Part shown: piece after piece, positions 12-32,372 of the stretch | Layout of the letters: every line of letters begins with the position of its first letter | Position numbering within the stretch: position 1 is the stretch's first letter | Origin: Gammaproteobacteria bacterium | GTDB taxonomy: Bacteria > Pseudomonadota > Gammaproteobacteria > VBWC01 | Length of the DNA stretch: 64,000 bases | Assembly: GCA_006218035.1 (NCBI GenBank) | Contig: VBWC01000004.1 | Coordinates: forward strand, 35,537-99,536 | Reading direction: 5' to 3' | Translations under genes and position numbers: made by a program | Notes under the pieces: model-generated | Database searches by the model: none | Told to the model about the DNA's origin: nothing | What the model saw: the letters and a program-made list of their open reading frames with translations, nothing else

Positions 12-54
12 GTGCATCCATGCACCGCACGCAGGCTGTTTTTCAACAGCCTGC
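12..54 (-). terminator. Tandem hairpins ending the cytochrome cluster
   Basis: Positions 31-40 and 45-54 form a perfect 10-bp stem with a 4-nt loop that begins at the stop codon of the small peptide ORF. A second hairpin (12-17 with 20-25) follows and, read on the minus strand, is trailed by GCCATTTTTC. The T-run after the second hairpin makes an intrinsic terminator plausible for the long minus-strand cluster. The first hairpin alone has no T-run. Confidence 0.5.
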
Positions 55-221
55 TAGTGCTCTTTCTTCACGGCCGTGTCCTGCACGAACGGCGCCGCCT
101 GCCCGGCGGACGCGGTCAGGTACCCGACACACAGGGCGGCGAATAAGACGGATTTAATGCGCAGGGGAACTTCCCCGGATGGTCTGTCAGGGATCACCCG
201 GTTTTGAAGAATGCTCAGCAT
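54..221 (-). CDS. Possible small exported peptide (about 55 aa)
   Basis: This short frame lies 47 bp downstream of the TPR gene, in the same direction, and stops exactly at the terminator hairpin. Its C-terminal half looks like a signal peptide: a basic residue pair, the hydrophobic stretch VLFAALCVGYLTASA and an AQA-like cleavage site (GQAAP), then a short charged tail ending KKEH. No convincing ribosome binding site is seen before the ATG at 221 or the alternative GTG at 197. No family is recognised. Its place at the end of the operon and its signal-like segment are the only arguments that it is real; it may be a leftover or non-coding. Confidence 0.3.
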   Translation of the reverse strand: MLSILQNRVIPDRPSGEVPLRIKSVLFAALCVGYLTASAGQAAPFVQDTAVKKEH

Positions 222-268
222 CGCCGACGCACGGACGGACCTCGTGACGAACGGGCTCAAACAAGCGG

Positions 269-973
269 TTACTGTTGCGGCAGCAGATCGATGACCTGGG
301 GCGCATCGATCCGCCGATCGACGTCGGCGCTGTTGCGCTCGGACCACTGGCGCGCGCCGCGATCAAGAAACTCCTGTTCCTCCACCGGCAGCGGGCCACG
401 CTTTAACGTGCTTTCCCATTCCCACAATGCCGAGCGCGCCTTGCGCACATAGGGGTCGTCCGGTTTGGCAAGATGAATATAGGCGCGCATCGCACCAAGC
501 GCGCCCTCAAGATCAGCGAGCTGTTCCAGCGCAACGGCCAGTCCCCAGTAGGCGTTGGCCTGATACGGCCGCAGGTCGATCGCCGTCTGGAAGAAGTCCC
601 GCGCCGCGTCATAGCGCTGCGCGCCGATCAGCGCGAATCCCATGTTGACATGCGCCTCCGGCATGCGCGGCGCAAGCAGCAATACTCGGTGCAACGCGGT
701 GATGGCATTATCGTATTGCTTCGCATGCAGCATCGCGACCGCCTGCAGAAAGCGCGTATCGATTTCGTGTTGGGCAAGCTGGCTGGCGTGCCCGGCCGGG
801 TCCAGCTTCGCATCCACTGTCGCGGTTGGCGGCGCGTGCGCTGACGCCGCCCGCAGCATGCCGGGGCGTTGCATCAGCAGTGCAATCGCCGCAACCAGTG
901 CCACGACACAGAGCAGCGATACCAGCGCGACCGGGACGTCCTGCGGCGGATGTTCTATCACTTGTCCGGTCAT
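269..973 (-). CDS. Membrane-anchored TPR protein
   Basis: This 234-residue protein has one N-terminal membrane helix (about residues 14-35), a linker, and tetratricopeptide repeats over roughly 65-185, including AMLHAKQYDNAITALHRVLLL and the following PEAHVNMGFALIGAQRYDAA unit. TPR domains bind other proteins. Its ATG overlaps the ccsA stop codon as ATGA, so the two are translationally coupled. The position suggests a CcmH/CycH-like apocytochrome chaperone working with System II, but that role is inferred from context. The TPR assignment is good; the function is open. Confidence 0.8.
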   Translation of the reverse strand: MTGQVIEHPPQDVPVALVSLLCVVALVAAIALLMQRPGMLRAASAHAPPTATVDAKLDPAGHASQLAQHEIDTRFLQAVAMLHAKQYDNAITALHRVLLLAPRMPEAHVNMGFALIGAQRYDAARDFFQTAIDLRPYQANAYWGLAVALEQLADLEGALGAMRAYIHLAKPDDPYVRKARSALWEWESTLKRGPLPVEEQEFLDRGARQWSERNSADVDRRIDAPQVIDLLPQQ

Positions 974-1821
974 ATCACACCCTTGTGCACCGCCTCACTG
1001 ATGAACGGCGTGCTGAAATAGGTCATGAAGGCGACGACAAAAATAATCAGGATAAAGACCGCGCCGAGGCGGATCGGTACGTTCCAGGCCAGACGCGCGT
1101 GTATCGCACCGCCCAGCGCCAGCCAGGTCAGGAACGCCGATGTTTCCAGCGCATCCCATGACCAGAAGCGGCCCCACGCATCCTGCGCCCAGACCGCGCC
1201 GGCAATCAGCATCAGACTGTCGAACACCAGCGCCAGCACCATGAAGCGCCACGCATACCGGTCCAGCACGTCGTCCGCCGGCAGGTGGCGCAGCCATGAC
1301 GCAAACCAGCCGATCCAGCGCAACAGGATCACCCCGGCGAGACCCGAACCCACCATGGAAAACGCCAGAAAAATCTTGCCGAAACCGACGTGTGCCCACA
1401 GCCAGTCGTTGTAATAGGTCGGCGGGAACGGCGCGTCCTTCGGTTCCAGCATCAGTACCCACAGACCCAGCACCCAGATGATCGGCAGCGAGACGATCGC
1501 GCCGGGGCGCAGCAGCGGCAGGCGCCAGTACACCAGCGTGTAGATGGCACCGAGGCTGAACAACTGGCTGACGAGCAGTTCGAACAGATTCACAAACGGG
1601 CCGTGCCCGATCCGCACCCAGCGCACGCCGAGGGAAACGGCGAGCAACACTACTCCGCAGACCATGAACAACAGCACCAGGCCTTCGTAGCCGCGCGTTA
1701 CGCCGGTGCCGGCGGCCAGAACCCTTTGCTGCGCAACACCGCGAAACGCGTAAAACGCCGCCAGCGCATACGCGGCCAGACCGGCCCACAACCACGGCAT
1801 TTCAGTCGCTTCGCTAAACAT
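970..1821 (-). CDS. ccsA: Cytochrome c biogenesis protein CcsA/ResC (System II heme handling)
   Basis: This 283-residue polytopic membrane protein belongs to the CcsA/ResC/CcmC/CcmF heme-handling family. The diagnostic tryptophan-rich WWD segment is at about 216-223 (WGRFWSWD, followed by ALET). Conserved-looking histidines lie at H73 (in GHGPFVNLFE), H144 and H241. With ResB it forms the System II synthase that carries heme across the membrane and attaches it to CxxCH motifs. I chose the ATG at 1821, 8 nt after the resB stop, because longer versions overlap resB and have no membrane-protein character. Being inside a multiheme gene cluster, it is probably dedicated to those proteins. Confidence 0.93.
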   Translation of the reverse strand: MFSEATEMPWLWAGLAAYALAAFYAFRGVAQQRVLAAGTGVTRGYEGLVLLFMVCGVVLLAVSLGVRWVRIGHGPFVNLFELLVSQLFSLGAIYTLVYWRLPLLRPGAIVSLPIIWVLGLWVLMLEPKDAPFPPTYYNDWLWAHVGFGKIFLAFSMVGSGLAGVILLRWIGWFASWLRHLPADDVLDRYAWRFMVLALVFDSLMLIAGAVWAQDAWGRFWSWDALETSAFLTWLALGGAIHARLAWNVPIRLGAVFILIIFVVAFMTYFSTPFISEAVHKGVI

Positions 1822-1829
1822 CGCTGCTA

Positions 1830-2852
1830 TCAACCCTTGTTGGTCAGCGCCGCGGACGACGCTGAATTGAGCGCGGGGATCTTGTCGGTCGCCGTATGCA
1901 CCGCCGTGAACGTCCGCCAGTAATGCGAAGCAAGCCCGATGACGCCAAGTATGGACGCCAGAAACAACCAGCGCAGTGTCGGATCGAAAAATATCTTGTA
2001 ACCCATCCACTGGCGCAATTGTTCATAACGCAACCGTCCGCCGTCCAGTACCGTTTCATCGCCGGGCTTCAGCTCGACACGACGGTCGCCATCGTTGACG
2101 ACCAGCACGCTGCCGGTGCGCCGCACATCCAGCGTCCATGCGGCGTCCTGACGCAAGCCGGTATCCAGTTGCAGCCAGAACTTGATTTCGCGGCCCCCGA
2201 CGGGTGTCCAGCTGTTGCTCTGCTTGAAATCGAACAGTGGATAGGACGGCATGTTGACCGTGCCGGTGACGGGTGCACCGGCGTCGGGTAGCCACGTCAG
2301 CACCGGCGTGAATCCCTTGTTGAACGTTGTGTAAAACCGGTAGCCATCAATCACCAGCGGCGTATCGTCGCCGATCACGCGCGCCTGCCATTCACCTTTC
2401 TCGTTGCGCACCCGGATATGGCTGCGCGTCGACCCGCGCACCAGCATCGGCTGATAGTCGACCGTGAACGGACCCTGGGAAAACTGCACCTGATCCAGAT
2501 TGCCGCTGTGGAACGGACCGCTTTTGACGTCGATCGCGTCGTCAATCGTAAACTGCTGCCCGTCCACCATTTCCACGTGAGCCTCGTAATGGGTCAGGCG
2601 ACCGACCCCGACGAGCACGACCACGGCGAGCAGGCCGATATGAAACATCAGTAATCCCGGCCGCCGGTTGATGCGTGGATTGGTCGCAATCGCCGCAACG
2701 AGATTCACCGCCAGCACCGACAGCGGCACCACCAGCACCCACACCGGCACTTCCGCCGGATTGCCATAAATCAGCGACGCACCGACCGCGAGCAGCGCCA
2801 TACCGACGATGGTCAGGCGCGTTGAGGACAGTAGCTTGCGAAGCACAATCAT
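1830..2852 (-). CDS. resB: ResB/CcsB cytochrome c biogenesis protein
   Basis: A 340-residue ResB-family protein, partner of CcsA in System II cytochrome c maturation. It shows the usual plan: three membrane helices near the N-terminus (about 12-29, 36-56 and 66-85, with a histidine in LLMFHIGLLA), a large periplasmic domain over about 90-290 and a final helix (WLFLASILGVIGLASHY). The periplasmic part is thought to hold the apocytochrome and accept heme. It is on the short side for ResB. It lies 92 bp after the undecaheme gene and 8 nt before ccsA, forming a heme-attachment pair within the cluster. Confidence 0.93.
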   Translation of the reverse strand: MIVLRKLLSSTRLTIVGMALLAVGASLIYGNPAEVPVWVLVVPLSVLAVNLVAAIATNPRINRRPGLLMFHIGLLAVVVLVGVGRLTHYEAHVEMVDGQQFTIDDAIDVKSGPFHSGNLDQVQFSQGPFTVDYQPMLVRGSTRSHIRVRNEKGEWQARVIGDDTPLVIDGYRFYTTFNKGFTPVLTWLPDAGAPVTGTVNMPSYPLFDFKQSNSWTPVGGREIKFWLQLDTGLRQDAAWTLDVRRTGSVLVVNDGDRRVELKPGDETVLDGGRLRYEQLRQWMGYKIFFDPTLRWLFLASILGVIGLASHYWRTFTAVHTATDKIPALNSASSAALTNKG

Positions 2853-2944
2853 GGCGAGTTACACATCGTTGACAGGACACGGCCGGCGCACCTGCGCGAC
2901 CGGCCTGATCATCTTTCGCGAGATAAACCGGCAGGCCGGCCGCG

Positions 2945-5659
2945 TCAGGGCAGATCCGCGCAGCCTTCGCCGGCGACATTGGTCATCCAGGCGAAACCAA
3001 TGTCGCCGCTGCCCGGCGGGCCTGCCGATCCGCAGTTTGAGTCCACCCATTCGCCACTCCTGGCGAAGGTGCGTACCTTGAGCACCGATCCATTGTAGTA
3101 AGGGCCGTTCTCGTAACGGGCTTGCGTGTTATTGCGCACCTGCGTACCCGGCGCCAGACCGCCTTCCGGACCGACGTCATTCAGGTTGGCGAGAAACACC
3201 TTGTTCTTCCAACCATGCGGTATCGCGATATGGCAGTAATTACAGCGGAAATTCGTCCGTACCGCGTCAATGTGGCCGTTATGCAGATTCACGACGCGCA
3301 CCGGTCCTATGCAGCCGAAACTATCCGTGGTCGTGCTGAATCCGCTCGAACCGCCCGGCGCTTCACCGACGGTCTGCGCGCGCTTGCCGTAGGACGCATA
3401 ATTATGGCACTTGAAACACAGATGGTTATCGGTACCCGGGGTATTGCCGGCGGCGAATCCATCGTCACCGTGCGTTTCTATTCCGGCAATATTGGGACCG
3501 ACGCCGGCCCACGGCCCCTTCAACAGAAAATCATTGTTCGAACCATGCGGCCCCCACGGACTGCCCTGCTCGCCGCCGTTGGGTATCGCCGTACCGGTGG
3601 CGGTATTGGAGCCATGGCAATCCGTGCAGTACATGGTTTGGATACCCACGCCCTGCTCGAATGGCGGCAACCAGCTGGTGGATAACAGATTCGTCTTGAG
3701 ATCGCTGGTCTTCGGCGCGGGCCGATTAACGAAATAACCACCCGCCGAACCTGCACGCACCACCGGCGTTCTGCCGGTCTCCGTCAACACCGGATGCCAC
3801 GAGCGGTGGTTGTTCGCCGCGTACGCGGCGGCCGCGCCGCCGGATGTGCCGGAGGTTCCTTCGCCTTTATGATCGTCCGGCGACTGGTACTCCATGCCCT
3901 GGTTGGTGTACTGGCTCATGTTGTTGGTGCCCGCCGGGGTACCGCCGGAAAAACTGCCCAGGAACGGCGCCGTATCGTAGGCATAATTGGAATGGCATTT
4001 CAGACACACCTGGTACTCGCGCGTCACGTGCGGGGCGCTGACCGCACTGGTGGCGCCGGTTCCGCCGTCGCCGCGTTTGGCCTCGAAGGCGATCGGCTGG
4101 CTGCCAAACTGGGTACCGGACCATGCCGTTGGCTCAACACCCCAGATACCGCGTAGCACGCCGGACGCAATATTCGTATGCACGGCCTCGCCAGCCGCGG
4201 CTATCTGCGCCGGCGTATGGGGGTGGGTGCCTTCGGTGTCCGGAATCGCATTGTTGGCATTGAACAAGCGGTTCTTCACCACGCGGTGCGGGTTGTGGCA
4301 ATCGGTACACTCCGCATGACGATTGTTCAGATTGCCCTTGCCCATGTTGAGCGGCGATTCGACGAAGTCCTTGCCGGCCTGGTTGGGCGCATCCGGATTC
4401 GGCGAACCGATGTTATGCATTTCCGTGCCCGCCGGCTGATCGGCGTTGGCGATCGGCATATGGCGCAACATTGTCGTGAAATCCGTCTTGATATCCGGCA
4501 CCTCGAAGGTGATGCCGCCCTGACCCTGCAGCGTCCCGCCGTCCGGCGAATGGCACGCGTAGCAGGTTTCCTCGATCGCGGGGTTGCCACCCTGTTTGAA
4601 TTTACCGCCGGTTGCAGCATCCACAAGCTGCGGTCCGTCGGTGCCTTCACGAAGAATGCGGCGCGAGCCCTGTACCGTGTGCGGGTCATGGCAGTTCAGA
4701 CACGCGGCCTGCCAGACCTGCGTGTCGGCCGGAAATTCACGTATCGCGGCCGCTTCCGGTGTATAGCGCTCGTTGCCGACAACCTGGCTCGCGTGCGCGG
4801 AACCCGCCCAGCCTTCCTTGTCATGGCAGGCGACGCAGATAATATCGCTGCCGGGATCAAAATCGCCGCCGGTCGGCACGTTTTCCTGGAACCGGTTCAC
4901 GCGCAGAAACTTGATGTTCTTGTTCGGATCGGTATCGCGGATATGCGGGTCGTGGCACGAAATACATTCCACCTTGTTGTCTTCCAGCGGAATTGTCGGC
5001 CGCCGGTCGATTTCCGGTGTCGTGGAATCCAGATTGCCTTGTTTACGGTTGCGAACATGCGCGTTGCCAACCGGATTGCGCAGTTCACCGTCGCGATTGA
5101 ACTGCGCCAGATCGTAGGTGAATGAAATGGGGTGGTCGTTGGTCAGGTCGGTGCCGAGGCGTCGCGTAAAGCCCGTGGTCGGCCCCGCTCCTTCCGGAAT
5201 CGTACCGCCCGGCCCGGGATTGATACCGGCCATCGCGATGTTCGGATTGCCCCGGCCGTTGAGTACGTTGACCGCGCCGATCGCCAGCGTACCGTCGTGG
5301 CACGACAGGCACAGCTTCGACTTGCCGTTCGGCTGACTCAGGTCTATGGCATCGAGCGATCCCGAGGTATAAGGCGTATAGGTCGCCGCCGTCAGCGAAC
5401 GGTTCCATAACGGCGCCCGCGGTTCCACGGAGGCGCCGTGCGGCGTATGGCAGAACACGCAGATCTGGGATTCGCTTGACGCCTCGATATTGCGTTTCGC
5501 TCCGCCGGGCAGCGTGGGTTCGACCGTGTGGGAAAAGTTATGCCGCGTGTTGCGGATGTCCGCAATACGGTCGGCGAATGAACAGGCCGACCATAGCGCC
5601 AGCAGTACACCGGCACACAGCCCGACCCGAGTTGGAATTGAACGCCACTTTTCCTTCAC
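2945..5659 (-). CDS. Secreted undecaheme c-type cytochrome
   Basis: A 904-residue protein with a signal peptide (about 1-29, cleaved after SFA) and eleven CxxCH motifs at residues 67, 117, 232, 275, 320, 366, 451, 552, 678, 748 and 806. Several are followed by TPH, DPH or NPH, giving extra histidines for bis-His ligation. Residues 31-279 align with the whole tetraheme protein at 14008-14832: KHN/RHN, CVFCHTPHG, PLWNR, CLSCHDG, DLTNDH, VEC.SCHDPH and a fourth CxxCH. The remainder is a seven-heme extension with glycine-rich linkers. Three non-heme cysteines lie near the C-terminus (783, 876, 900). The GTG start overlaps the preceding stop as GTGA, so it is coupled to the NHL gene. Likely an extracellular or outer-membrane electron carrier. 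Confidence 0.92.
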   Translation of the reverse strand: MKEKWRSIPTRVGLCAGVLLALWSACSFADRIADIRNTRHNFSHTVEPTLPGGAKRNIEASSESQICVFCHTPHGASVEPRAPLWNRSLTAATYTPYTSGSLDAIDLSQPNGKSKLCLSCHDGTLAIGAVNVLNGRGNPNIAMAGINPGPGGTIPEGAGPTTGFTRRLGTDLTNDHPISFTYDLAQFNRDGELRNPVGNAHVRNRKQGNLDSTTPEIDRRPTIPLEDNKVECISCHDPHIRDTDPNKNIKFLRVNRFQENVPTGGDFDPGSDIICVACHDKEGWAGSAHASQVVGNERYTPEAAAIREFPADTQVWQAACLNCHDPHTVQGSRRILREGTDGPQLVDAATGGKFKQGGNPAIEETCYACHSPDGGTLQGQGGITFEVPDIKTDFTTMLRHMPIANADQPAGTEMHNIGSPNPDAPNQAGKDFVESPLNMGKGNLNNRHAECTDCHNPHRVVKNRLFNANNAIPDTEGTHPHTPAQIAAAGEAVHTNIASGVLRGIWGVEPTAWSGTQFGSQPIAFEAKRGDGGTGATSAVSAPHVTREYQVCLKCHSNYAYDTAPFLGSFSGGTPAGTNNMSQYTNQGMEYQSPDDHKGEGTSGTSGGAAAAYAANNHRSWHPVLTETGRTPVVRAGSAGGYFVNRPAPKTSDLKTNLLSTSWLPPFEQGVGIQTMYCTDCHGSNTATGTAIPNGGEQGSPWGPHGSNNDFLLKGPWAGVGPNIAGIETHGDDGFAAGNTPGTDNHLCFKCHNYASYGKRAQTVGEAPGGSSGFSTTTDSFGCIGPVRVVNLHNGHIDAVRTNFRCNYCHIAIPHGWKNKVFLANLNDVGPEGGLAPGTQVRNNTQARYENGPYYNGSVLKVRTFARSGEWVDSNCGSAGPPGSGDIGFAWMTNVAGEGCADLP

Positions 5660-6735
5660 GCGCCACCCAGATATTCGAATACCACCACGCGACCGTTAAA
5701 CATGTCCGCCACATAGACTTGTCGTCCGGTATCCGTCCAGACTCCGGCCGGTAAATAGAACTGGCCCGTCCCGCTCCCAGTGCCACCGATCGGCATCAGC
5801 AGATTGCCGTCGGCATTGAATACTAACAAATGGTCGTAAAACGATTCCACCACATAAATCAAGCCGTTACTATCTACCGCCACGCCTTTCGGCCGCGGCA
5901 GGTCGCCGATGAACAGCCCCCGACGCCCAACGACCTTGCGGCTCTCCCCGGCAGGCGAAAGCACCTGGATACGCGAGTTAAACGTGTCGGTCACGTAGAG
6001 CTCGCCGTTCGCGAACGCCAGATAGGTCGGCGCATTGAACTCACCCGGCTCCGTGCCGGGCCTGCCCAGCGTCCTGACCAGCTCACCCGCCCGGTCAAAC
6101 ACCTTGATATCGTGCGCCCGACCGTCGGCGACATAAATCTCGCCGGTCTGCGGATCCGTGGCCAGCCCCGTCGGCCGCAAGATCTTGCCCTGTCCGATCG
6201 TGCCGACGGGCTCACCGAGCGTATCGAGACGCACGATGTAGCCAAGTTCCGCATCCGCCACCAGTAACTCGCCGCTGTCCCCGCCGGCGACTCCCACCGG
6301 CATTGAGAAACGCAGGTTCTTACCGGCCATTTCCCAGACATGCAGTCTGCCCGCCGGTACGTCAAACACATACACGGCCTGGCGGCTGACATCGGTCACA
6401 AAAATTCGCCCGCTGGCGTCAACGTAACCGCGTTGCGGCCGTTGCAGCACTACCGGTTGATGCTTGCTCGATGCAAGTCCGACCAGCCATTTCAACGCCT
6501 TCCTGCCAAATTGCAGCGCGGCATTCGGTTCGTCGTCCGGCGTGAAATTGTCTTCGCCGGTCAATTCGCCGACGTACCGGTAACGCGGCTGATCCGGCGG
6601 CGGCGGAAACACATGTTGCTCCGCTCCTGCCGAACCCTGCAGTTGAAACTTTCCGGGCGCAGCCGCGCACGCGGACAACAACAACGTTGCAATCACAAAC
6701 GTGACGCCTGTTTTGCAACGCAGCACGTTTCTCAC
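5656..6735 (-). CDS. NHL-repeat beta-propeller lipoprotein
   Basis: A 359-residue predicted lipoprotein: a hydrophobic leader ends in the lipobox LLSAC with lipidated Cys at 23. Residues from about 75 to the end contain NHL-type repeats of the form G.F..P.G...D..G..YVAD...+R..VF, for example GQFYLPAGVWTDTGRQVYVA, consistent with a six-bladed propeller. NHL propellers bind proteins or other ligands; no catalytic residues are evident. The start is GTG, 12 nt after the previous NHL gene, with an AGG about 8 nt upstream. Its stop overlaps the undecaheme start, suggesting fixed stoichiometry and a scaffold or assembly role. Confidence 0.87.
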   Translation of the reverse strand: MRNVLRCKTGVTFVIATLLLSACAAAPGKFQLQGSAGAEQHVFPPPPDQPRYRYVGELTGEDNFTPDDEPNAALQFGRKALKWLVGLASSKHQPVVLQRPQRGYVDASGRIFVTDVSRQAVYVFDVPAGRLHVWEMAGKNLRFSMPVGVAGGDSGELLVADAELGYIVRLDTLGEPVGTIGQGKILRPTGLATDPQTGEIYVADGRAHDIKVFDRAGELVRTLGRPGTEPGEFNAPTYLAFANGELYVTDTFNSRIQVLSPAGESRKVVGRRGLFIGDLPRPKGVAVDSNGLIYVVESFYDHLLVFNADGNLLMPIGGTGSGTGQFYLPAGVWTDTGRQVYVADMFNGRVVVFEYLGGA

Positions 6736-6747
6736 TGTAGCGCCTGG

Positions 6748-7764
6748 CTATTCCTCAATCGCTTCCTTGACGACGCGCAATATCTGGATCCGGCCATTCA
6801 GACTGTCAGCAACATAGATAAAACCTTCGTCCAGCCACATATCGGTGATACGCCGGAACTTGCCCGGTGCCGAACCGGTACCGCCTGACTGCGCCACCAG
6901 CAGATCGCCCTGATAGATTTTGATCGTATTATCAATGAAATCGCTGACGAATACGAGGTTATCGTCACTGACGACAACGCTGTTGGGGTAAGCAACCGAG
7001 TCGCGCGGCAGCGAATACCGGTAGCTACCGTCGTCGCCCAGCACCTGGATGCGGTCACCAACGCGCGCGATGATATAGAGCCCCTCCGGCCCGCGCGCCA
7101 TCCCGGTGATATTCAGAAACTGCCCCTCGCTGGAACCGCGCTTGCCGATCGCCGTCAACGCCTCCCCTGTACTATTAAACACGACGACATGGTCCATCAC
7201 GCCGTCCGCGACAAAGACATAGCCGGTGCTGTCATCCACCGACACCGACACCGGCCGGCGCAGGTTCAGGGTATTCCTGAACTCGCGTATTTGACGACCA
7301 CGATGGTCAAACTGCAGCACGCGCGCGCCACCCCAGTCGGCAATGAAAAAATCGAGATTTGGCGTCAGGAAGATATCGGTAACGTCGCCGGTTACCGTCC
7401 CCTGCAGATCGACGAGTTCGATGAACTCCCGGCGGTTCCGGTCAAAGCGCAGCACCTTCTGCTGATCCGCATCGACAATCAGGATGATGTCACCCCGCGC
7501 GGCGACGGCGACGGGACGCTTAAGGCGTACGTCGCGGCGTCCGACGATACTATCGCCCTCAATCCCCACCTCGATAGTTTCCCAGGGCAGCAAGACCTCG
7601 GCGACCAGGCCAACTGCGGCAGCGGCCGTCGAGACGGTATCCGTTTCCTCTGAAAACAGGTTTTCGGTCTGCGGCGGCTGCAGACTGCAACCACCGACAA
7701 GCAGCGAGCCGCTAAAGAAAACGCTTAGCGCAAGAAACCGGATTCGCGCGATACGGAATGACAT
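6748..7764 (-). CDS. Second NHL-repeat beta-propeller lipoprotein
   Basis: A 338-residue NHL-repeat protein with signal and lipobox (LLVGGC, Cys 26 from the ATG at 7764). Repeats include RPVAVAARGDIILIVDAD, NITGMARGPEGLYII and a terminal DMWLDEGFIYVADSLNGRIQ, together forming a propeller. It is related in plan to the next gene, but the sequences are clearly diverged. The 7764 start gives a canonical lipoprotein signal; a longer version from 7818 would put 18 polar residues before the signal. It overlaps the upstream triheme cytochrome gene by 40 bp, so the two are tightly linked. Confidence 0.86.
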   Translation of the reverse strand: MSFRIARIRFLALSVFFSGSLLVGGCSLQPPQTENLFSEETDTVSTAAAAVGLVAEVLLPWETIEVGIEGDSIVGRRDVRLKRPVAVAARGDIILIVDADQQKVLRFDRNRREFIELVDLQGTVTGDVTDIFLTPNLDFFIADWGGARVLQFDHRGRQIREFRNTLNLRRPVSVSVDDSTGYVFVADGVMDHVVVFNSTGEALTAIGKRGSSEGQFLNITGMARGPEGLYIIARVGDRIQVLGDDGSYRYSLPRDSVAYPNSVVVSDDNLVFVSDFIDNTIKIYQGDLLVAQSGGTGSAPGKFRRITDMWLDEGFIYVADSLNGRIQILRVVKEAIEE

Positions 7765-8285
7765 CGTCCACAATTCATGGTTGGCGGAAAGGCAACTTTT
7801 CCGTGACAGACGCCGCAATATTCCCCTTGGATAATCGCGGACATCGTTACCGGATTACCACCCTTCTGCGGAAGAAATATCGACGGATGACAGTTCAGAC
7901 AGGTCAACCATTCCGTGTGTGGCCGGTGCGGAAAACGAACATACGGCATCGACCCGGTGTTCTTGAAAATGATATCGAAATCGGCGGGAAACATTTCCTC
8001 GTCACCCAACAGGCTCTTGCGCGGATTGATAAGCCCCTCATCCAGTACCTCCACCCAGTTGATGATGTTCTGGCCGTCGCGTGGGAATCCCTTCATCGCC
8101 TCATAAGGCTGCTGCAGGACATTGACGGCATCGTTGGTCGGGTCATGGATACCGTCATCCGCGACACGCACCTCTTCGCCACGCAACTGAAAGTGCTGGC
8201 CCTTGATCCACACCGGCACTTCCGTCGCCATAGCGCCGGACACAAGCACTGTCGTTAACACGAATACAAGACTAAGTCGCAACAT
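7725..8285 (-). CDS. Periplasmic triheme c7-type cytochrome (paralogue A)
   Basis: A 186-residue exported protein (signal to about residue 20) with three CxxCH motifs at 129-133, 157-161 and 172-176 in a compact C-terminal c7-type domain that starts with the FPHRPH.EW.TC pattern. Preceding residues 44-110 form a region shared with the 241-residue cytochrome at 9776-10501: DGIHD, a LQ.P motif, KG.P and a WV motif. The two are clear paralogues. Triheme c7 domains usually act as low-potential periplasmic shuttles. The last 40 bp overlap the first NHL gene. Likely a periplasmic relay feeding or draining the outer-membrane components. Confidence 0.9.
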   Translation of the reverse strand: MLRLSLVFVLTTVLVSGAMATEVPVWIKGQHFQLRGEEVRVADDGIHDPTNDAVNVLQQPYEAMKGFPRDGQNIINWVEVLDEGLINPRKSLLGDEEMFPADFDIIFKNTGSMPYVRFPHRPHTEWLTCLNCHPSIFLPQKGGNPVTMSAIIQGEYCGVCHGKVAFPPTMNCGRCHSVSRESGFLR

Positions 8286-8316
8286 GTATCACTCGCGCGT
8301 CAATTGCTTAAGATGT

Positions 8317-8342
8317 CGGTGGCCGCGCATGCGCGGCCACCG
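8317..8342. repeat. 26-bp perfect palindrome inside the cytochrome operon
   Basis: The sequence from 8317 to 8342 is a perfect inverted repeat (CGGTGGCCGCGCA and its complement) starting a few bases after the stop codon of the cupredoxin-like gene. As RNA it would form a very stable GC hairpin. No T-run follows on the minus strand, so it is not a standard intrinsic terminator. It may protect the 3' end of the upstream message or reduce read-through to the distal genes. Confidence 0.7.
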
Positions 8343-8347
8343 GGATA

Positions 8348-9715
8348 TTATCGTACGCCAGCCGTCATCAGCGCACGCTGCATTTGATTGGTTGCTTCCT
8401 GCATGCCGATAATAGCAGTCTCGTAGTCCCCTTTCTTCGCGTAGCCCGCAGCTTCGCCAGCGATTTTCTTGCCTTTCTCTACAAAGGTGTTAATCAGCTG
8501 AACCACATTTTCCGCTGGTTGCTTCTGTTCCAGCGCCAACGGAACCAGGTCCGCGAATCCTTTATAGCGTGCAACTTCAAACTGATATTCTTCCGCCGGC
8601 GTTTTGAATTTCTGATCGTAAACCACTGCCTCGCCCTGGAACGCCTGGCTCAATGCCGACGTTACCATGGACTGGGCCTTTTCGAGCGTGTCCGCCGCTT
8701 CCTTGTATTTGCCGTCGGTAGACAACGCAATGGCGTCATCTTCCATCTTTTGTATGGTTTTCGGGTCCAGATCCGACGAACTATCGCTACGTTTGGACTT
8801 CGTCTTGCGCTCGTACTGCTGCAGATAGGATTCCTTGTAGTTCCTCAGATTGCCAAGCAATTCTGCGTAGCGTATGCGGTGATCGACACCATCACCACCC
8901 TCCTTGGGCACCAGACCTACTGCGGCATTCGCATCATCAATCGCCTTCATGGCGCTTTCCATCGCAGCACTGTTATTACCGCCCTTAAGTGCGGATTCCG
9001 ATGCGGCCAGATCGGCCTTCGCCTGCTCCATCATTGCCCGTGCTTCAGCATGACCGCTGTCGGCAACGCGTTTCGCCGACTGCGACATCGTCAGCATCTT
9101 CGCGTACGCAATTTTCTGTTTTACGTCCGCCTCGGAAACCTCGGCAGGCCTGGCCACCGCTGACGCGCTTCCCGGCTTGTGCTCAAGCGTGACCTTTTCA
9201 CCCTCACTGACCACATGCATCAGGCCACCCATGTTCATGTGGTTACGACACTGATAAAACATCCGGCCCGGGGTTTGCTGGTTCGGCGTAAACGCCACCT
9301 TGCCTTTAAAGGTAAACTGACCAAGCACACCATCCGTCACCGTTCCGGCGCCCCGACCGATTTCATCAGTCGTCAGGTAAAAGTCGTGCTGGATGTCGGT
9401 GTCAACATCGAACGCGTAGGTTACGCCGCGGGTCAGCACCAGCTCCTTGCTTTCCTCTCCGTCGACAGAAAAACCGATCTCTTTGCCCTTGCCAAAAAAC
9501 ATATGGGCCGGCGTTTTTGGTCCCACGGTGACCTTGAAGGTCCGTGCCGCCTTGCTAACCGCCGCGGCCAGCTCTTGCTTGGCATCATCCGACTTGGCGG
9601 CGAGCATTAACGGGGCATGATCGGCCAAATGGACATGCGACGACTCGGCGTAAACACCAATGGGGAGCAGGATGGGCAGCGTCATCACCATGACGCTTCG
9701 GGTCAACTTCTTCAT
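8348..9715 (-). CDS. Exported cupredoxin-like protein with helical repeats
   Basis: A 455-residue protein with a signal peptide (about 1-23, GVYA). Residues 60-170 look like a cupredoxin-type beta-sandwich with a possible type-1 copper site: His110 in DIQHDFYL and Cys156, His159 and Met162 in YQCRNHMNMGG. Residues 195-455 are alpha-helical and Ala/Lys/Glu-rich. They contain three similar units of the form A...G.Y..A...L..A.......AL (about 235-268, 325-358 and 420-452), resembling TPR-like hairpins. The ATG at 9715 has a strong AAGGAG site, and a stable hairpin follows the stop, suggesting high expression. A copper electron carrier fused to a protein-binding module is the best reading; no known family of this whole architecture comes to mind. 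Confidence 0.8.
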   Translation of the reverse strand: MKKLTRSVMVMTLPILLPIGVYAESSHVHLADHAPLMLAAKSDDAKQELAAAVSKAARTFKVTVGPKTPAHMFFGKGKEIGFSVDGEESKELVLTRGVTYAFDVDTDIQHDFYLTTDEIGRGAGTVTDGVLGQFTFKGKVAFTPNQQTPGRMFYQCRNHMNMGGLMHVVSEGEKVTLEHKPGSASAVARPAEVSEADVKQKIAYAKMLTMSQSAKRVADSGHAEARAMMEQAKADLAASESALKGGNNSAAMESAMKAIDDANAAVGLVPKEGGDGVDHRIRYAELLGNLRNYKESYLQQYERKTKSKRSDSSSDLDPKTIQKMEDDAIALSTDGKYKEAADTLEKAQSMVTSALSQAFQGEAVVYDQKFKTPAEEYQFEVARYKGFADLVPLALEQKQPAENVVQLINTFVEKGKKIAGEAAGYAKKGDYETAIIGMQEATNQMQRALMTAGVR

Positions 9716-9724
9716 GAACAATAT

Positions 9725-9730
9725 CTCCTT
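9725..9730 (-). promoter_or_regulatory. Strong ribosome binding site for the cupredoxin-like gene
   Basis: AAGGAG lies 9 nt before the ATG at 9715. It is the best Shine-Dalgarno match in the cluster and decides the start against an in-frame TTG at 9721. Confidence 0.7.
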
Positions 9731-9775
9731 CTGTTGATCACGTTACCCTGCCCCCAATGGCCCGCGTTCCTGGCA

Positions 9776-10501
9776 TTACTTCCAGGGATTATTCGTAGTG
9801 GCACTACTCAACGGCGGTTTCCAGTCGTCTGGCTTCGGCTTGGAATGGCACTTTTTGCACGTCTTGGTTTCGATCGGGAATGAAACCTTGCCGTGACATA
9901 CGCCGCATTTCTCACCGAGCAGAATGGCCGACATACTGATCTGGTTGGCGCCTTTCTGCGGGATGAAAATCGCCGGATGGCAATTCGAGCAGGCGAGCCA
10001 TTCAGTATGTTGCCGATGCGGGAACACCACATCGGGCATCGATGCCTTGACCGGCCGGACAATGTCCATATCCAGCACGAAGGGCTCTTCGTCGGGATTG
10101 ACACGGTCCCAGCGCGGGGCAAGCGCCTTCTGATCGATCGACTTTACCCAATCCACCTGGTTACCGAACGTAGTTTCCGGTAGACCCTTGAACGCCACCT
10201 TTGGGGGCTGTAACGCAAATGTTGCTTCGTTATTGGAATCGTGGATACCGTCTTCCGGCGGCGCGAGGTTAGACTCGTGTTTTTTCAGGTTCTGATTGAA
10301 TACATTTGCGGAAGATACGTCGGCGAGACGAATAACCTCGCTTTCGGAAATGGCCGCAAACACGGAACCCTGATCCGTGAACGAACTCCACACAGCAGCA
10401 GCCGGCTGTGCCGGTTGCTGTACCTCGGAACTCCAGGCGGGAACGGCAATCAACATCGTAACGAGAGCCGTCAGCCAACGTGCATGTGCTTTATAACTCA
10501 T
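9776..10501 (-). CDS. Periplasmic triheme c7-type cytochrome (paralogue B)
   Basis: A 241-residue exported protein (signal to about residue 24) with CxxCH motifs at 171-175, 199-203 and 215-219. It shares with paralogue A (7725-8285) the DGIHD.N....LQ.P segment and the c7 domain FPHRQHTEWLACSNCHPAIF, with near-identical spacing to CGVCHGKV. It has an extra N-terminal stretch of about 40 residues and a lysine/proline-rich tail. The ATG at 10501 is preferred over a GTG at 10510 because GAGGGG lies 8 nt upstream. It starts 12 nt after the neighbouring triheme gene. Likely a periplasmic electron shuttle. Confidence 0.9.
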   Translation of the reverse strand: MSYKAHARWLTALVTMLIAVPAWSSEVQQPAQPAAAVWSSFTDQGSVFAAISESEVIRLADVSSANVFNQNLKKHESNLAPPEDGIHDSNNEATFALQPPKVAFKGLPETTFGNQVDWVKSIDQKALAPRWDRVNPDEEPFVLDMDIVRPVKASMPDVVFPHRQHTEWLACSNCHPAIFIPQKGANQISMSAILLGEKCGVCHGKVSFPIETKTCKKCHSKPKPDDWKPPLSSATTNNPWK

Positions 10502-10513
10502 GACGGTCACCCC

Positions 10514-10954
10514 TCACTTTTTGTCTGCAGGCTTTTCCAACGCCTTGTAGGTCGGCGCAATCAGACGCTGAACGGTACTGCCGTGAAAATGCGTCGGTGT
10601 TCCCGGAATTCCCGAGTGACACATGCCGCAGTTTTCCACCGACCAGGCGATTTCTCCGTTGTGGCAGGCACCACAAAACTGACCATCAATAATCTTGGCC
10701 ATGTTGATTTTATTTCCGCCTGCCTTGAACTGAAATCCCAGATCGGCGTGACATACCTTGCACCGGAATCGAACCCGGTGGAACCAGTGAGGGAAAACAA
10801 CCGGCCGCATGCCCGCAGCATCCGCATAGTTGTTGATCACAACGTCCGCATACTCGGCATGTGCCACCTGTGGTAGAGCAAAAGCGGTCAGGCTTGCCAT
10901 CATCGCAAACACGGCTGACCTCCCCAGATTACGACGCTGTGCATTCAGTGCCAT
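10514..10954 (-). CDS. Small periplasmic triheme c7-type cytochrome
   Basis: A 146-residue exported protein (signal to about residue 33, cut after AHA) with CxxCH at 65-69, 94-98 and 109-113 and the c7 signature VVFPHWFHRVRFRCKVCH, INMAKIIDGQFCGACHNG. This is a minimal triheme domain without the DGIHD region of its two neighbours, so it is the most divergent of the three. An AGGAG lies about 10 nt before the ATG. Probably a soluble periplasmic carrier between inner-membrane oxidoreductases and the outer-membrane conduit. Confidence 0.91.
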   Translation of the reverse strand: MALNAQRRNLGRSAVFAMMASLTAFALPQVAHAEYADVVINNYADAAGMRPVVFPHWFHRVRFRCKVCHADLGFQFKAGGNKINMAKIIDGQFCGACHNGEIAWSVENCGMCHSGIPGTPTHFHGSTVQRLIAPTYKALEKPADKK

Positions 10955-11054
10955 AGCGATCTATCTCCTCGTTATTGCAAATAAAACAGTCAGATAATAA
11001 ACCGTTTTTTGCTCTTACCCTCCGCTGTATCGGCTGGCAAGGCAAAACTTCAAC

Positions 11055-12854
11055 CTAGAAACTACGCGTGACCTGGAAATAGATCAGGTCCGTTTGTTCC
11101 CCCCCTTGATCGAACATCCGCCAGCTCAGGCGCGTACTCACGAGCCCGATATTATAGTCCAATCGGTTCTCCCATTCGAATCGATCGAGCCCTATGTCAT
11201 TCGCCGCCTCAGAATGCGATAAATCGGACAGGTAGCGCAACCTCGGTATTCCGGCAACGCGCGAATGCTGGAAGGTTAATCTGGCCACCAGCGTTTCTGT
11301 CTCGCTCGTCCCTAAACTGCCAAAATCCTGATTGACCGTCTGCCAGGTCAGGTTACCCATTAATGACATTAACCGGCTAAGTGGCTGCGTCCGGCTCAAC
11401 TGGAGGTTGAGAAACTGCTGCTCGTCGTCCTGGTCGCCAAAATTACGGGAATCCTGCAATATGGCCTGCATTAACGACGAGCCACCCCAGCGCAAATGGT
11501 TCCAGCTCGTCGTCATCGTATGATCCAGTCGATACTCGGTTGCGCTGTTGCCGGACTGAATATTGGGGCTGAACGACTGGCCGACAGACCCGCGTATCGT
11601 CGAGAAATCGCTGGGCACCCAGAAACGGCCAAGATCATGCGACAACGTACCACCAAATGTCTGCCGGTTCTCGATGTCGCTGCTCTGTGTCGCGGCAAAA
11701 GCGTTCGCAAACCACTGATAGGTATATCCACTCAGGTCGTGGACATCGGACTGGTACAGGGCACCGGTACGCAGATTGGTTACCGTCGACGAACCGCCGT
11801 CGCTGTCCAGGAGCGCCACGTCCCCGCGCGCATCCAGCCGCCAGCCTTTGGTCAACTGGTAGAATCCACCGAGCGTGCCGCTCAACGACGTGGTTTCCGT
11901 CGTCTTCGGCGTGCCGGTGTAGACATTCAGCCCCGAAGCCGCCAGGTTGAACAGCCGCACACCGCCGGTGATGGTCAGCGGCCGGTCCTGCGGCCGCCAG
12001 AACGCGAAACTGGAAATCTGGATCTGGTCGGTCTCGCGGCTGCCGTTAGTGCTCGCCACCTTGAAAGAATCGTCGGTCTGAACGATGTTCGTCAGCGTAT
12101 CAACCCGCAAACTTTTGCGCGGAAAATAAAAATGATCGGCCTCGATGATAAGACTATCGCGCTCCTCCCCCGTCCGCACCCGCTCGGTTGACTGCGTGGT
12201 CAGCTCCGCAATCAGTCGCTGCTGGGGCCTGCGCAGATCGGCCTCGAAACCCATAGACTGGTCTTCCACCACCCCGCTGATACTGGAATCCCACTCGCTA
12301 AAATCGAGCTTGGCCCGGTAGCGATGTCCGGTCTGCGTGATGTAGGCCTGGGTCAATCCGAGCCGCTGGGTTTTGAAATCCTGGCCGATCTTTACCAGGG
12401 AATTGAGGGAATTGCTAGGCGCGGCGGCTGTCGTGTCCACGCGACTATCGGTCGCCAGATACATCATCGTGAACGGCGTGGCGCTCTGCGGCAGCAGGTT
12501 GAGGTTGAGCTCCCCTGTAGCGATTTTCGATTCGGTATCACCCCCGCCACCGTATTCCGTATTGTCCAGCGTCGAAGTCAATCTCGCACCCACCTGGGCA
12601 AACCAGGGCCGCCAGATATACGTGTTGCCAGCCAGCGTACCGAGATACTGATTGCTGATGGTTTTATCGTCGCCGGTGGTCAGCGAGCGATACGTGTATC
12701 CGACATTCCCGGACCAATCGATCGGCGGCAAATCGGCGGCAGATAATACGGGCGCCGCCGCGAGCAAGATCGCGGCCACGGAAAATACGCTGCGGCTGAC
12801 CCACTGTCGCAATTGGCTCGATGAATATTTTGTCAACCGCGTCCGCGACAGCAT
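11055..12854 (-). CDS. Large outer-membrane beta-barrel, candidate electron-conduit porin
   Basis: A 599-residue protein with a signal peptide (about 1-39, cut near LSA|AD). The mature part is dominated by alternating hydrophobic/polar strands with aromatic girdle residues (GNVGYTYRSL, TYIWRPWFAQVGARL, RLSWRMFDQGGEQTDLIYFQ) and ends in Phe (QVTRSF), as expected for BAM-inserted barrels. No CxxCH is present. The size resembles MtrB/PioB-type porins that sheath multiheme cytochromes, but I see no sequence signature proving that family. Flanked by a periplasmic isomerase and triheme cytochromes, it is the obvious candidate for the trans-outer-membrane part of the system. Confidence 0.82.
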   Translation of the reverse strand: MLSRTRLTKYSSSQLRQWVSRSVFSVAAILLAAAPVLSAADLPPIDWSGNVGYTYRSLTTGDDKTISNQYLGTLAGNTYIWRPWFAQVGARLTSTLDNTEYGGGGDTESKIATGELNLNLLPQSATPFTMMYLATDSRVDTTAAAPSNSLNSLVKIGQDFKTQRLGLTQAYITQTGHRYRAKLDFSEWDSSISGVVEDQSMGFEADLRRPQQRLIAELTTQSTERVRTGEERDSLIIEADHFYFPRKSLRVDTLTNIVQTDDSFKVASTNGSRETDQIQISSFAFWRPQDRPLTITGGVRLFNLAASGLNVYTGTPKTTETTSLSGTLGGFYQLTKGWRLDARGDVALLDSDGGSSTVTNLRTGALYQSDVHDLSGYTYQWFANAFAATQSSDIENRQTFGGTLSHDLGRFWVPSDFSTIRGSVGQSFSPNIQSGNSATEYRLDHTMTTSWNHLRWGGSSLMQAILQDSRNFGDQDDEQQFLNLQLSRTQPLSRLMSLMGNLTWQTVNQDFGSLGTSETETLVARLTFQHSRVAGIPRLRYLSDLSHSEAANDIGLDRFEWENRLDYNIGLVSTRLSWRMFDQGGEQTDLIYFQVTRSF

Positions 12855-12866
12855 CTCAGATAGCCG

Positions 12867-13937
12867 TTATCGTTGCTGCTCTGGTTGCCCGTGCTGCCGT
12901 TGCGCGGGGTCCCTATAGATAGTAATCATGGTGTTATCGTGCAATTTCTGAATGAAGGCATTCCACGTGTGCTCCACCTGCTCTCTCAACAACAGTTCCG
13001 CGGCGCGCTCATGTGCCCCGGAAAAATCGTTAAACACTGACGAAATCGTCTCGTCCAGCCGCAGTATGGCGATGCCCTGAAGCAATCTGACCGGACTCGA
13101 AACCTCTCCCACACCCAGGTCGTCCAACACCCGTTGCGCATCGGCCGCCAGCATGCCCTGGTGTATCGCGCCAAGATCGCCGCCTTGCTGCGCTGACTCG
13201 TGATCCGAATATTCACGCGCCAGCGTACGAAAATCCGCGCCGTCACGGAGCTGCGCCACAAGCTGCTGCGCACGCGCCGCGACGTCCTGCCACTGCTGGT
13301 TCGTCGCCCACGGATCGACGTGCAGCAGAATCAGTGAAACACGGGCACGCGCCGGGGTAACGAACTTGTCCTTGTGGTCGTCGTAATAACGGCGAATCGC
13401 CGCCTTATCCGGACGCGGAACGTCTTTTACACCGGCCTCTAGTTGCTCAAGCAAATCGTTTTCCTCAAGCTCGAAGCGCAATTGCCCGAGCAGTGCGTCA
13501 CGATGACTGCGCCACCCTGGCGATCGCTGGTTACGCGCATCCACCGTCGCAATCCGGTTACCGATTCTTTCTCGGCGCGGTACATAGCCGCGGCGCTTTG
13601 CTTCCTGCAGCAACAACGTCCTGTCAATGACAGTTCGCTCTACCTCCCTGTTAAATTCCTCCACTTTCCCTGACGGCAAGCCGCCATGAAAAAAACGCTG
13701 GCGGGCAAGCGCGCGCGATACGGCTTCGTAACGCTCCCAACCCACCTTCTCGTCGCCAACGACAGCGAACACTCCATCGCCAGGTCGCAATCCGGCTTGC
13801 CAGGCCGTTCCATCGTCAGCCAGAACCGCCGGCGACAGTGCCAAGACAAGCAGGAACCGCCATACACCGCGACCGACTCGTGGACCCGCACCAATTTTCG
13901 TAACCGTATCCCTTTCTCCTGTGCGTAATCCGGGCAC
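12867..13937 (-). CDS. Exported parvulin-type peptidyl-prolyl isomerase
   Basis: A SurA/PpiC-like protein of about 356 residues. A hydrophobic signal (WRFLLVLALSPAVLA) is followed by an N-terminal helical chaperone region (about 60-190) and one parvulin domain (about 193-297) with the typical ADFRTLAREYSDHESAQQGGDLG stretch, described here by its key DF..LA..YS and GGDLG motifs. Such proteins fold secreted proteins and outer-membrane barrels. The start is uncertain: the frame opens at GTG 13937 without a clear ribosome site and with a long n-region, while GGAG lies further in before no standard start codon. It sits between the tetraheme cytochrome and the barrel, implying a dedicated folding factor. 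Confidence 0.87.
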   Translation of the reverse strand: MPGLRTGERDTVTKIGAGPRVGRGVWRFLLVLALSPAVLADDGTAWQAGLRPGDGVFAVVGDEKVGWERYEAVSRALARQRFFHGGLPSGKVEEFNREVERTVIDRTLLLQEAKRRGYVPRRERIGNRIATVDARNQRSPGWRSHRDALLGQLRFELEENDLLEQLEAGVKDVPRPDKAAIRRYYDDHKDKFVTPARARVSLILLHVDPWATNQQWQDVAARAQQLVAQLRDGADFRTLAREYSDHESAQQGGDLGAIHQGMLAADAQRVLDDLGVGEVSSPVRLLQGIAILRLDETISSVFNDFSGAHERAAELLLREQVEHTWNAFIQKLHDNTMITIYRDPAQRQHGQPEQQR

Positions 13938-14007
13938 ACCATCGCAGACTTATCGGGAATTGCATCCCCCTGTTTACGGGAAGATCCGCAAACCACATAC
14001 ACTCACG

Positions 14008-14832
14008 TTATTTGGCGTGACAGGTCAGACAGACCGCGCTGCCACTGGGATCAATCCGCAGAAAGGTGGGATTTTCATCCACGTGGGGATCATGGCAGGA
14101 AGCACATTCCACATACGGTTGCAGTTCGCCCACATTGACACCCAGCGTCCCTGTTCGGGTATACAACTTTAGATCGGTTCTTTCGAAGTTGGACGTACCG
14201 ATCGGCGTATTCAGCCACCAGAAGCGTGAATCACCGACGAATGCAGTTTCGGGCCGATTGAAATCCGGATCGCGGCCCGGGCCGGCAGGATTCGAAATGG
14301 AATACCCGCCGCCGGCAAACTGCACACCGATCGCGTGATCGTTCGTCAGATCCTTCCCGAGATTCGTAATAACGGTCGCCGGCCCAAGGCGCCCCCCCAC
14401 CGTTGCCGCCTGGCCACTCCAGACGCCATTGCTGAATGCCTGGACGTCAGCACCAGAACCTGGTTCGTTGATCAAGGAGTCCATTGCCTGGGTACCGTCA
14501 TGGCAGGACAGGCAGGCAATTGAAACAGAACCAATCGGCTCTATCGAGGCATCGAGCGTCGTCGTGCCAAGCTGATCGTAGGTGGTAAAACTTCTTGGCT
14601 CGGCGAGATGCCGATTCCACAGAGGTACCGCCGCGGTCGCGTCGGCACCGTGCGGCGTATGGCAGAACACGCAGACCTCTGGCGTGCCACTGAAGTTGCT
14701 GGCCGCATTGACCCCGCCCATTCCGAGATTATGCTTGGTGTTTGCAATACCGGCCGTTGCGGTACCGCTCAACCCGAGCAAAGTTACGACCAAGAGCGTT
14801 GACCAATACGGGCGTAGTCTTCCCGGTTTCAT
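14008..14832 (-). CDS. Secreted tetraheme c-type cytochrome (OmcE-like candidate)
   Basis: A 274-residue protein with a signal peptide (about 1-28) and four CxxCH motifs at 54-58, 107-111, 243-247 and 268-272. Four further histidines in conserved-looking settings (H34 in KHNLG, H61 in TPH, H166 in NDHAIG, H250 in DPH) could complete bis-His coordination. The chain ends two residues after the last heme motif. The whole protein aligns with the first 279 residues of the undecaheme cytochrome. Four hemes, an early KHN histidine and the CVFCHTPH motif recall the tetraheme filament cytochrome OmcE of Geobacter, but that match is from memory. It is promoter-proximal, as expected for the most abundant product. 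Confidence 0.9.
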   Translation of the reverse strand: MKPGRLRPYWSTLLVVTLLGLSGTATAGIANTKHNLGMGGVNAASNFSGTPEVCVFCHTPHGADATAAVPLWNRHLAEPRSFTTYDQLGTTTLDASIEPIGSVSIACLSCHDGTQAMDSLINEPGSGADVQAFSNGVWSGQAATVGGRLGPATVITNLGKDLTNDHAIGVQFAGGGYSISNPAGPGRDPDFNRPETAFVGDSRFWWLNTPIGTSNFERTDLKLYTRTGTLGVNVGELQPYVECASCHDPHVDENPTFLRIDPSGSAVCLTCHAK

Positions 14833-14855
14833 TCTTACCCCCTATCCCCGCACGT

Positions 14856-14885
14856 TTTGTATCACAGTTTGCAAAAAACTGTCAA
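14856..14885 (-). promoter_or_regulatory. Sigma-70-type promoter for the cytochrome cluster
   Basis: On the minus strand a perfect TTGACA (14880-14885) is followed after 18 nt by TACAAA (14856-14861). Transcription would begin about 15-20 nt before the ATG at 14832, which has a GGGGG ribosome site. It is the best promoter match upstream of the co-oriented cluster. Confidence 0.6.
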
Positions 14886-18733: not shown

Positions 18734-18755
18734 CAGAAACTCCTTTTTATTCTGG

Positions 18756-18767
18756 TGAATATATTCA
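18756..18767 (-). promoter_or_regulatory. Operator-like palindrome before the peroxidase gene
   Basis: A perfect 12-bp inverted repeat TGAATATATTCA centred about 28 bp upstream of the peroxidase ATG, overlapping an AT-rich stretch that could be the -10 region. It does not match the FNR consensus TTGAT-N4-ATCAA. Confidence 0.35.
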
Positions 18768-18838
18768 TCCCGGCGACTTTCCGGAATTCCATGCCGAGCG
18801 CCCGCGCCGGTGGCGCGGCGATAGCTATCTGCGAGGAT

Positions 18839-31246: not shown

Positions 31247-31278
31247 AGCTACCCCTGATTACTTGTTTTCAATTCCGG

Positions 31279-31845
31279 TTACTGCGTGGCCGCGGTACGC
31301 ACGCCGGCCGCTGCGGCATCTTTGGCGAGACCATGACGAACGTAATTGACAACGTGCCAACGCTCCTCAACGCTCAAGTCGTTCGATCCGCGACTGTCTT
31401 CACGCGCGGTCGGCACACCATAGGCGGGCATTACATAGCTGCCGAACGTGATGGTGCCAAATATCCAGCCTTCGGTAAGCGTTTCCTGCACATAACTGTC
31501 CACCAGCGAGATCGCGCCGATCTTGTTGGTCACCGGGGAATCTGCCTGGCCGGTCAGACCGTGACACGCCGCGCAGTAGATCTTGAACAGCGTACGGCCA
31601 TTTTTCATCGACGCGTCCGACAGGGGAATCGGGTTAGTGAGCCCCTTGGCTTCCTCACGATTGGCAATCTTGGTGGGGAAACCCGTTACCGGCACGGAAC
31701 GAGTCGGAAACGGGTACATTTCCTTTTCGTTAAAGGGTTCCTGCGGCTTCATGCTGGGCTGATTCATCATGTCCGTGGACCAAGGCCACGCCAACGCCAG
31801 GGTCGGCGCCAACAAGAGCGCTGCAAACAGGCTGACAACCTTCAT
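31279..31845 (-). CDS. actE: Alternative complex III monoheme cytochrome subunit ActE
   Basis: 188 residues with an export signal (about 1-19) and one CxxCH at 91-95 (YCAACHGLTGQ). The probable distal Met is in FGSYVMPAYG. It is a class-I cytochrome c exposed to the periplasm that passes electrons out of the complex. I see no lipobox, whereas some ActE proteins are lipid anchored. Its ATG overlaps the actD stop by 4 nt. Confidence 0.92.
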   Translation of the reverse strand: MKVVSLFAALLLAPTLALAWPWSTDMMNQPSMKPQEPFNEKEMYPFPTRSVPVTGFPTKIANREEAKGLTNPIPLSDASMKNGRTLFKIYCAACHGLTGQADSPVTNKIGAISLVDSYVQETLTEGWIFGTITFGSYVMPAYGVPTAREDSRGSNDLSVEERWHVVNYVRHGLAKDAAAAGVRTAATQ

Positions 31846-32369: not shown

Positions 32370-32372
32370 TGT

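Follow-up and report, generated by a model that had tools for sequence, protein, structure and literature searches.

The uet (undecaheme electron transfer) cluster of Candidatus Tenderia electrophaga and the Tenderiales is reportedly described by Eddie et al. (2022, mSphere 7:e00223-22). The Uet complex comprises the tetraheme cytochrome UetA, the peptidyl-prolyl isomerase (PPIase) UetB, the porin UetC, the triheme cytochromes UetD, UetE and UetG, the NHL proteins UetH and UetI, and the undecaheme cytochrome UetJ (PMC10734462); the name uetABCDEFGHIJ and the conservation of the cluster across the Tenderiales are given in PMC12575090, and it is also reported from Gallionella and Leptothrix (PMC10734462, PMC12575090, PMC13386937). 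An earlier account of the Tenderia locus lists three triheme cytochromes (Tel_16515, Tel_16520 and Tel_16530), whose genes rank with the most strongly expressed on the cathode; it further lists a TPR protein (Tel_16525) and an undecaheme cytochrome (Tel_16545), whose gene shows no response to electrode potential (PMC5371394).

Three other types of system invite comparison with the locus studied here. The MtrCAB and MtoAB conduits also combine a large outer-membrane barrel with multiheme cytochromes, and it is to MtrB that the barrel of our locus has its highest TM-score; nevertheless, we reject membership in this group because no decaheme MtrA/MtoA partner (TIGR03508) was detected above cut-off in the genome. 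The undecaheme (Occ) cluster of Candidatus Dechloromonas occultata, a betaproteobacterium, is likewise a cytochrome cluster centered on an undecaheme protein, which is cited in PMC13264449. Finally, ANME-partner sulfate reducers and Geobacter have conduits of the OetABI type, which share a barrel, multiheme cytochromes, a beta-propeller and a PPIase with our locus (PMC10553843, PMC5539420). However, this type features very large cytochromes with 16 and 26 hemes alongside a six-bladed propeller and the PPIase (PMC5539420), and the passages describing it in these two sources make no mention of a triheme c7 trio, a cupredoxin/TPR protein or ResB/CcsA. As the largest cytochrome of our locus has 11 motifs, and both the heme numbers and the gene content differ, OetABI membership is also rejected.

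The window considered here is a 64,000-nucleotide stretch of a gammaproteobacterial contig, and the locus at its low end is a complete version of the published cluster, namely uetABCDEFGHIJ followed by resB-ccsA-TPR. Thus, a gene combination to which the initial annotation could put no name is that of the uet cluster of Tenderia and the Tenderiales, Gallionella and Leptothrix, the Tenderia locus being the one that we compared directly. The cluster itself is already in the literature and the locus is an instance of a known system.

Gene content, boundaries and descent of the uet unit

The unit is a run of 13 minus-strand genes at positions 269–14832, in which neighboring genes abut or overlap in an operon-like arrangement. 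Five of its ORFs carry 4, 3, 3, 3 and 11 CxxCH motifs (24 in total), in agreement with the counts first noted for it; heme numbers are throughout those of CxxCH motifs. Searches with Pfam and NCBIfam recover the Paired_CXXCH family in the 4- and 11-heme proteins and the Cytochrome_C7/TIGR04257 nanowire_3heme domain in all three triheme proteins. The latter comprise the probably periplasmic c7-type cytochrome UetD (10514–10954; TIGR04257, E 2.5e-18; PF14522) and the c7-type cytochromes UetE (9776–10510; TIGR04257, E 5e-17), which has an extra N-terminal domain, and UetG (7725–8285; TIGR04257, E 4e-18), again with an N-terminal domain. The best PDB match of UetE is 3ov0 (E 8e-26), which we take to be the Geobacter dodecaheme protein GSU1996. 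The same searches bear out the earlier assignments of a secreted PPIC-type PPIase, UetB (12867–13937; PF00639, E 3e-18), two NHL-propeller lipoproteins, UetH (6748–7764; PF01436, E 7e-11; lipobox LVGGC) and UetI (5656–6735; PF01436, E 3e-28; lipobox LLSAC), and a ResB/CcsA pair, as well as a TPR protein (269–973; TPR families, E down to 2e-12) that is the conserved last gene of the unit. The start of UetH is probably the ATG at 7764, overlapping uetG. The cluster had originally been drawn more widely, at 54–14885; the ORF at 54–347, which matches no family and runs into the TPR gene, is dropped. Past the low edge of the window the next genes (BatD family) run in the opposite direction.

The locus of Ca. 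Tenderia electrophaga, taken from a genome identified by a 100% match of 8 kb to CP013100.1, holds all 13 genes with order and strand unchanged. Computed over the aligned parts, the identities lie in the range of 33–82%: UetA 68%, UetB 36%, UetC 33%, UetD 82%, UetE 62–75% depending on the aligned span, UetF 43%, UetG 64%, UetH 33%, UetI 54%, UetJ 57%, ResB 58%, CcsA 59% and TPR 66%. Hence, our locus has the ordered UetA–J set, with an 11-CxxCH UetJ homologous to the Tenderia undecaheme cytochrome, three triheme cytochromes, a PPIase, two NHL proteins and a predicted porin, and its order is also that of Tel_16515/16520/16525/16530/16545 (PMC5371394). The window further encodes an alternative complex III (ACIII) at 30.2–37.7 kb (PF11821, NrfD, molybdopterin and Fe-S subunits), and collinearity with Tenderia extends from the ACIII genes through most of the genes in between to rplM-rpsI and uet. 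This conserved neighborhood points to vertical descent of uet at this place and disfavors a recent horizontal acquisition. The recurrence of the same 13-gene order in genomes of other families also places the grouping far beyond chance.

The OmcE-like cytochromes, the predicted barrel, the candidate copper protein and heme attachment

OmcE forms extracellular filaments in which one heme is ligated by a histidine from the neighboring subunit (PMC9473688). Judged by sequence, the secreted tetraheme cytochrome UetA (14008–14832, minus strand; 4 CxxCH) is a full-length homologue of this Geobacter nanowire subunit and, as such, a candidate extracellular filament subunit, which upholds the link to cytochrome filaments suggested at the outset. 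A phmmer search relates it to OmcE of Geobacter sulfurreducens (PDB 7tfs) with E 8e-24, and the alignment runs end to end with 72 of 216 positions identical (33%). UetA displays the features expected of the OmcE family, i.e., four c-type hemes whose proximal and distal histidines are conserved: it keeps all four CxxCH motifs and the four candidate distal histidines of OmcE, the coincident ligands being H34, H58, H61, H111, H166, H247, H250 and H272, seven of which are retained in 41/41 sequences and one in 40/41. Like that of OmcE, its C-terminus lies two residues past the fourth heme. Another tetraheme chain of solved structure, 9yuq, matches UetA as well. While UetA and OmcE have their four hemes and eight histidine ligands in common, they differ in the modest identity and in insertions between hemes 2 and 3.

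UetJ (2945–5659, minus strand; 11 CxxCH) combines an OmcE-like tetraheme N-terminal domain with seven further hemes. Its residues 31–246 match 7tfs in a profile search (E 5e-31), and by eye the homology extends to the fourth heme. A structure prediction for UetJ from 28 homologues reached a pLDDT of 40 and was discarded. A limited literature search, with key uet and OmcE papers beyond its reach, recovered no paper linking Tenderia or Uet with OmcE; within that search, the OmcE relationship of UetA and UetJ is a new detail on a published cluster. The uet cluster, a marker of cathode- and iron-oxidizing bacteria, contains two proteins related to OmcE, one over its full length and the other, the undecaheme cytochrome, by the unit with which it starts; it can now be tested whether bacteria that take up electrons use the cytochrome wires by which Geobacter discharges them.

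UetC (11055–12854, minus strand) has no family match in Pfam or NCBIfam, and its sequence shows no detectable relation to barrels of known structure. Its AlphaFold2 model, with 28 long strands and a pLDDT of 87.6, nevertheless predicts an outer-membrane barrel of MtrB size, and in a Foldseek search MtrB (6r2q_B; E 9e-9, TM 0.46) has the highest TM-score among the outer-membrane barrels listed. The barrel called by the initial annotation is thereby supported by a predicted fold.

UetF (8348–9721, minus strand) is predicted to have an N-terminal cupredoxin domain with a candidate type-1 copper site, followed by helical repeats. The earlier description of a cupredoxin-like protein stands as regards its ligands: H112, C158, H161 and M164, corresponding to the His, Cys, His, Met set of type-1 copper proteins, are invariant in 12/12 homologues, and the C..H..M motif is present in the gamma-type homologues with an intact N-terminus. 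The Pfam match to the cupredoxin-like family PF25489 (E 5e-5) is weak and below the cut-off. A profile search of the PDB with UetF returned helical-repeat proteins and a single weak pseudoazurin match (E 0.36), which we do not take as proof. Accordingly, we regard the gamma-type UetF as carrying a complete type-1 copper ligand set, as gauged from residue conservation, a feature that we did not find published in a limited literature search. The Tenderia homologue has been described only as a TPR protein (PMC5371394), and it differs from our UetF in showing an apparent lipobox where the latter has an ordinary signal peptide.

The ResB-like (1830–2852; PF05140, E 3e-12) and CcsA-like (970–1821; PF01578, Cytochrom_C_asm, E 2e-19; start inferred from homologues) proteins, both on the minus strand, are System II components of cytochrome c maturation and heme handling. 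Together with the TPR gene they belong to the conserved uet unit, even though the genome also has a Ccm System I further out beyond the low edge of the window (CcmF and a CcmI/CycH-type protein); the cluster does, as proposed, possess its own ResB/CcsA pair in addition to that system. This membership was likewise not encountered in print in a limited literature search. Synteny ties the set to uet, and it may serve the Uet proteins only. A 13-gene unit, defined to include the linked System II pair for heme attachment, offers a basis for transferring the pathway to a laboratory host.

Proposed function and direction of electron flow

We consider it highly probable, taken as one joint statement, that this complete uet cluster goes back to a common ancestor with Ca. 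Tenderia electrophaga and that it most likely serves an autotroph to bring electrons into its periplasm from a donor outside the cell. That donor would be Fe(II), a mineral or a cathode, from which the surface cytochromes, UetA (of the OmcE family and possibly polymerized) and UetJ, would take electrons. These would then cross the outer membrane in the large barrel UetC and be relayed by UetD, UetE and UetG as triheme wires or shuttles, perhaps with the putative copper protein UetF, finally reaching the inner-membrane chain (ACIII and oxidases). UetB and the lipoproteins UetH and UetI, which resemble the PPIase and propeller proteins of Oet loci, would most plausibly assist folding and assembly, while ResB, CcsA and the TPR protein would attach heme. 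In this scheme we infer the localization of the proteins, complex formation, the cytochrome of the barrel, the electron direction and filament formation. The conservation of the 13 genes as a unit fits the original view of a self-contained module for extracellular electron transfer in a gammaproteobacterium. The genome also encodes two RuBisCO large subunits, a Cyc2-like cytochrome-barrel protein and a PCC3-like pair with 21 and 19 hemes, which along with the ACIII genes favor electron uptake in an autotroph and fit a lithoautotroph supplied with electrons from outside. On the opposing side, the literature search turned up no paper reporting a phenotype, whether by deletion or by biochemistry, for a Uet protein.

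A more specific version has the main product of the cluster as an OmcE-type nanowire, in which UetA polymerizes outside the cell, UetJ starts or caps the wire at UetC, and UetB, UetH and UetI assist; we would put this a little below an even chance. It draws on the match of UetA to OmcE over its whole length, heme ligands and C-terminal end, on the OmcE-like residues 31–246 of UetJ and on the 9yuq match, but homology to a filament subunit is no proof of polymerization, and the physiological role of the Geobacter cytochrome filaments is itself disputed (PMC11077965). Such a wire sharpens the uptake model rather than opposing it. On a similar note, we tentatively propose, at somewhat under an even chance, that in electrode- and iron-oxidizing autotrophs uet builds an OmcE-type nanowire of UetA for uptake, that UetJ joins this wire to the barrel, and that the copper of UetF in the gamma lineage carries electrons between hemes.

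The opposite polarity, with uet drawing on the quinone pool and passing electrons to Fe(III) or Mn(III/IV) outside the cell, appears unlikely. Porin-cytochrome conduits of the Mto/Mtr type can run both ways (PMC10734462), and a related undecaheme cytochrome is on record from a manganese reducer, Ca. Dechloromonas occultata (cited in PMC13264449); this, and the unresponsiveness of the Tenderia undecaheme gene to electrode potential, speak against a role in uptake. However, the RuBisCO, Cyc2-like and PCC3-like genes, the ACIII linkage and the cathode expression in Tenderia (PMC5371394) favor the inward direction. That the locus serves general redox or envelope functions in the periplasm and none outside the cell is very improbable, for although NHL and PPIase genes are generic, a predicted 28-strand barrel stands beside 24 hemes and an OmcE-type secreted cytochrome, in synteny conserved with a cathode oxidizer.

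Distribution and gene architectures

A sample of 369 genomes spread over the class includes 39 with UetJ (E ≤ 1e-60). Scanning named genomes recovered 79 uet loci, which derive from gammaproteobacterial MAGs, Ramlibacter, Rhodoferax, Polaromonas, Gallionella, Kiloniellaceae, Rhodospirillales and Magnetococcales, the Ramlibacter carriers being isolates; the module thus occurs repeatedly in Gamma-, Beta- and Alphaproteobacteria and in Magnetococcales. UetA–G, UetI and UetJ occur together in 35 of these 79 loci, many of whose contigs are cut, and 25 of the 35 additionally hold ResB, CcsA and the TPR protein. The joint search called for by the initial annotation finds the uet genes co-localized in other genomes and not scattered. 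A scan of viral contigs with UetD gave no match.

Two architectures are apparent among these loci. The gamma type reads ABCDEFGHIJ-resB-ccsA-TPR, with a UetF bearing the cupredoxin. The second type, which includes the beta-type loci, differs from the locus described here in having one or, often, two copies of a UetF without the cupredoxin and an extra UetD-like gene, frequently with no UetH match; it is found mostly in Beta- and Alphaproteobacteria and Magnetococcales, and in some gammaproteobacterial MAGs as well. The closest of the 79 loci to the one studied here is that of the MAG nzgw581 (98%).

Respiratory and heme genes beside the uet cluster

The window also carries an alternative complex III operon (30218-37688, minus strand), whose pentaheme ActA (37044-37688, minus strand) is accompanied by molybdopterin-type and Fe-S subunits, an NrfD-type subunit, ActD (PF11821), a monoheme cytochrome and an ActF-like protein. 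The linkage of this operon to the undecaheme electron transfer (uet) cluster is kept in Ca. Tenderia. A gene for a di-heme cytochrome c peroxidase/MauG family protein (17690-18838, minus strand) lies immediately upstream of rplM.

PCC3-like and Cyc2-like proteins

Elsewhere in the genome (G000), two neighboring multiheme proteins with 21 and 19 CxxCH motifs (L171:3729-7207; contig C2, about 87.7-91.2 kb) are similar to the cytochrome subunits of PCC3, a porin-cytochrome complex. For the next large ORF after them, only TPR models gave a match, and no barrel did. On contig C54 (L170:2162-3508, minus strand), we found a 449-aa Cyc2-like protein, whose N-terminal monoheme motif resembles that of the Cyc2-like protein of Ca. 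Tenderia and whose C-terminal part is probably a barrel; a search of the sister genome G001 matched no counterpart.

Relatives and duplicates of uet cytochromes

About 22 kb away from the uet cluster (L004:12356-14376; contig C47), a second OmcE-like cytochrome (316 aa, 5 CxxCH) is immediately followed by an NHL-propeller lipoprotein gene and the pair is adjoined by two multi-domain cytochromes; this locus could be another small extracellular cytochrome unit. Two solitary UetG-like triheme cytochromes (L050:8475-9083, contig C35, minus strand; L051:8841-9521, contig C44, plus strand) are distant from uet, share the DGIHDP N-terminal domain with UetG and have counterparts in other uet-bearing genomes. 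At five uet loci (L085, L086, L089, L093 and L107), UetJ is present in two copies of 11 hemes each, which are perhaps surface cytochrome variants.
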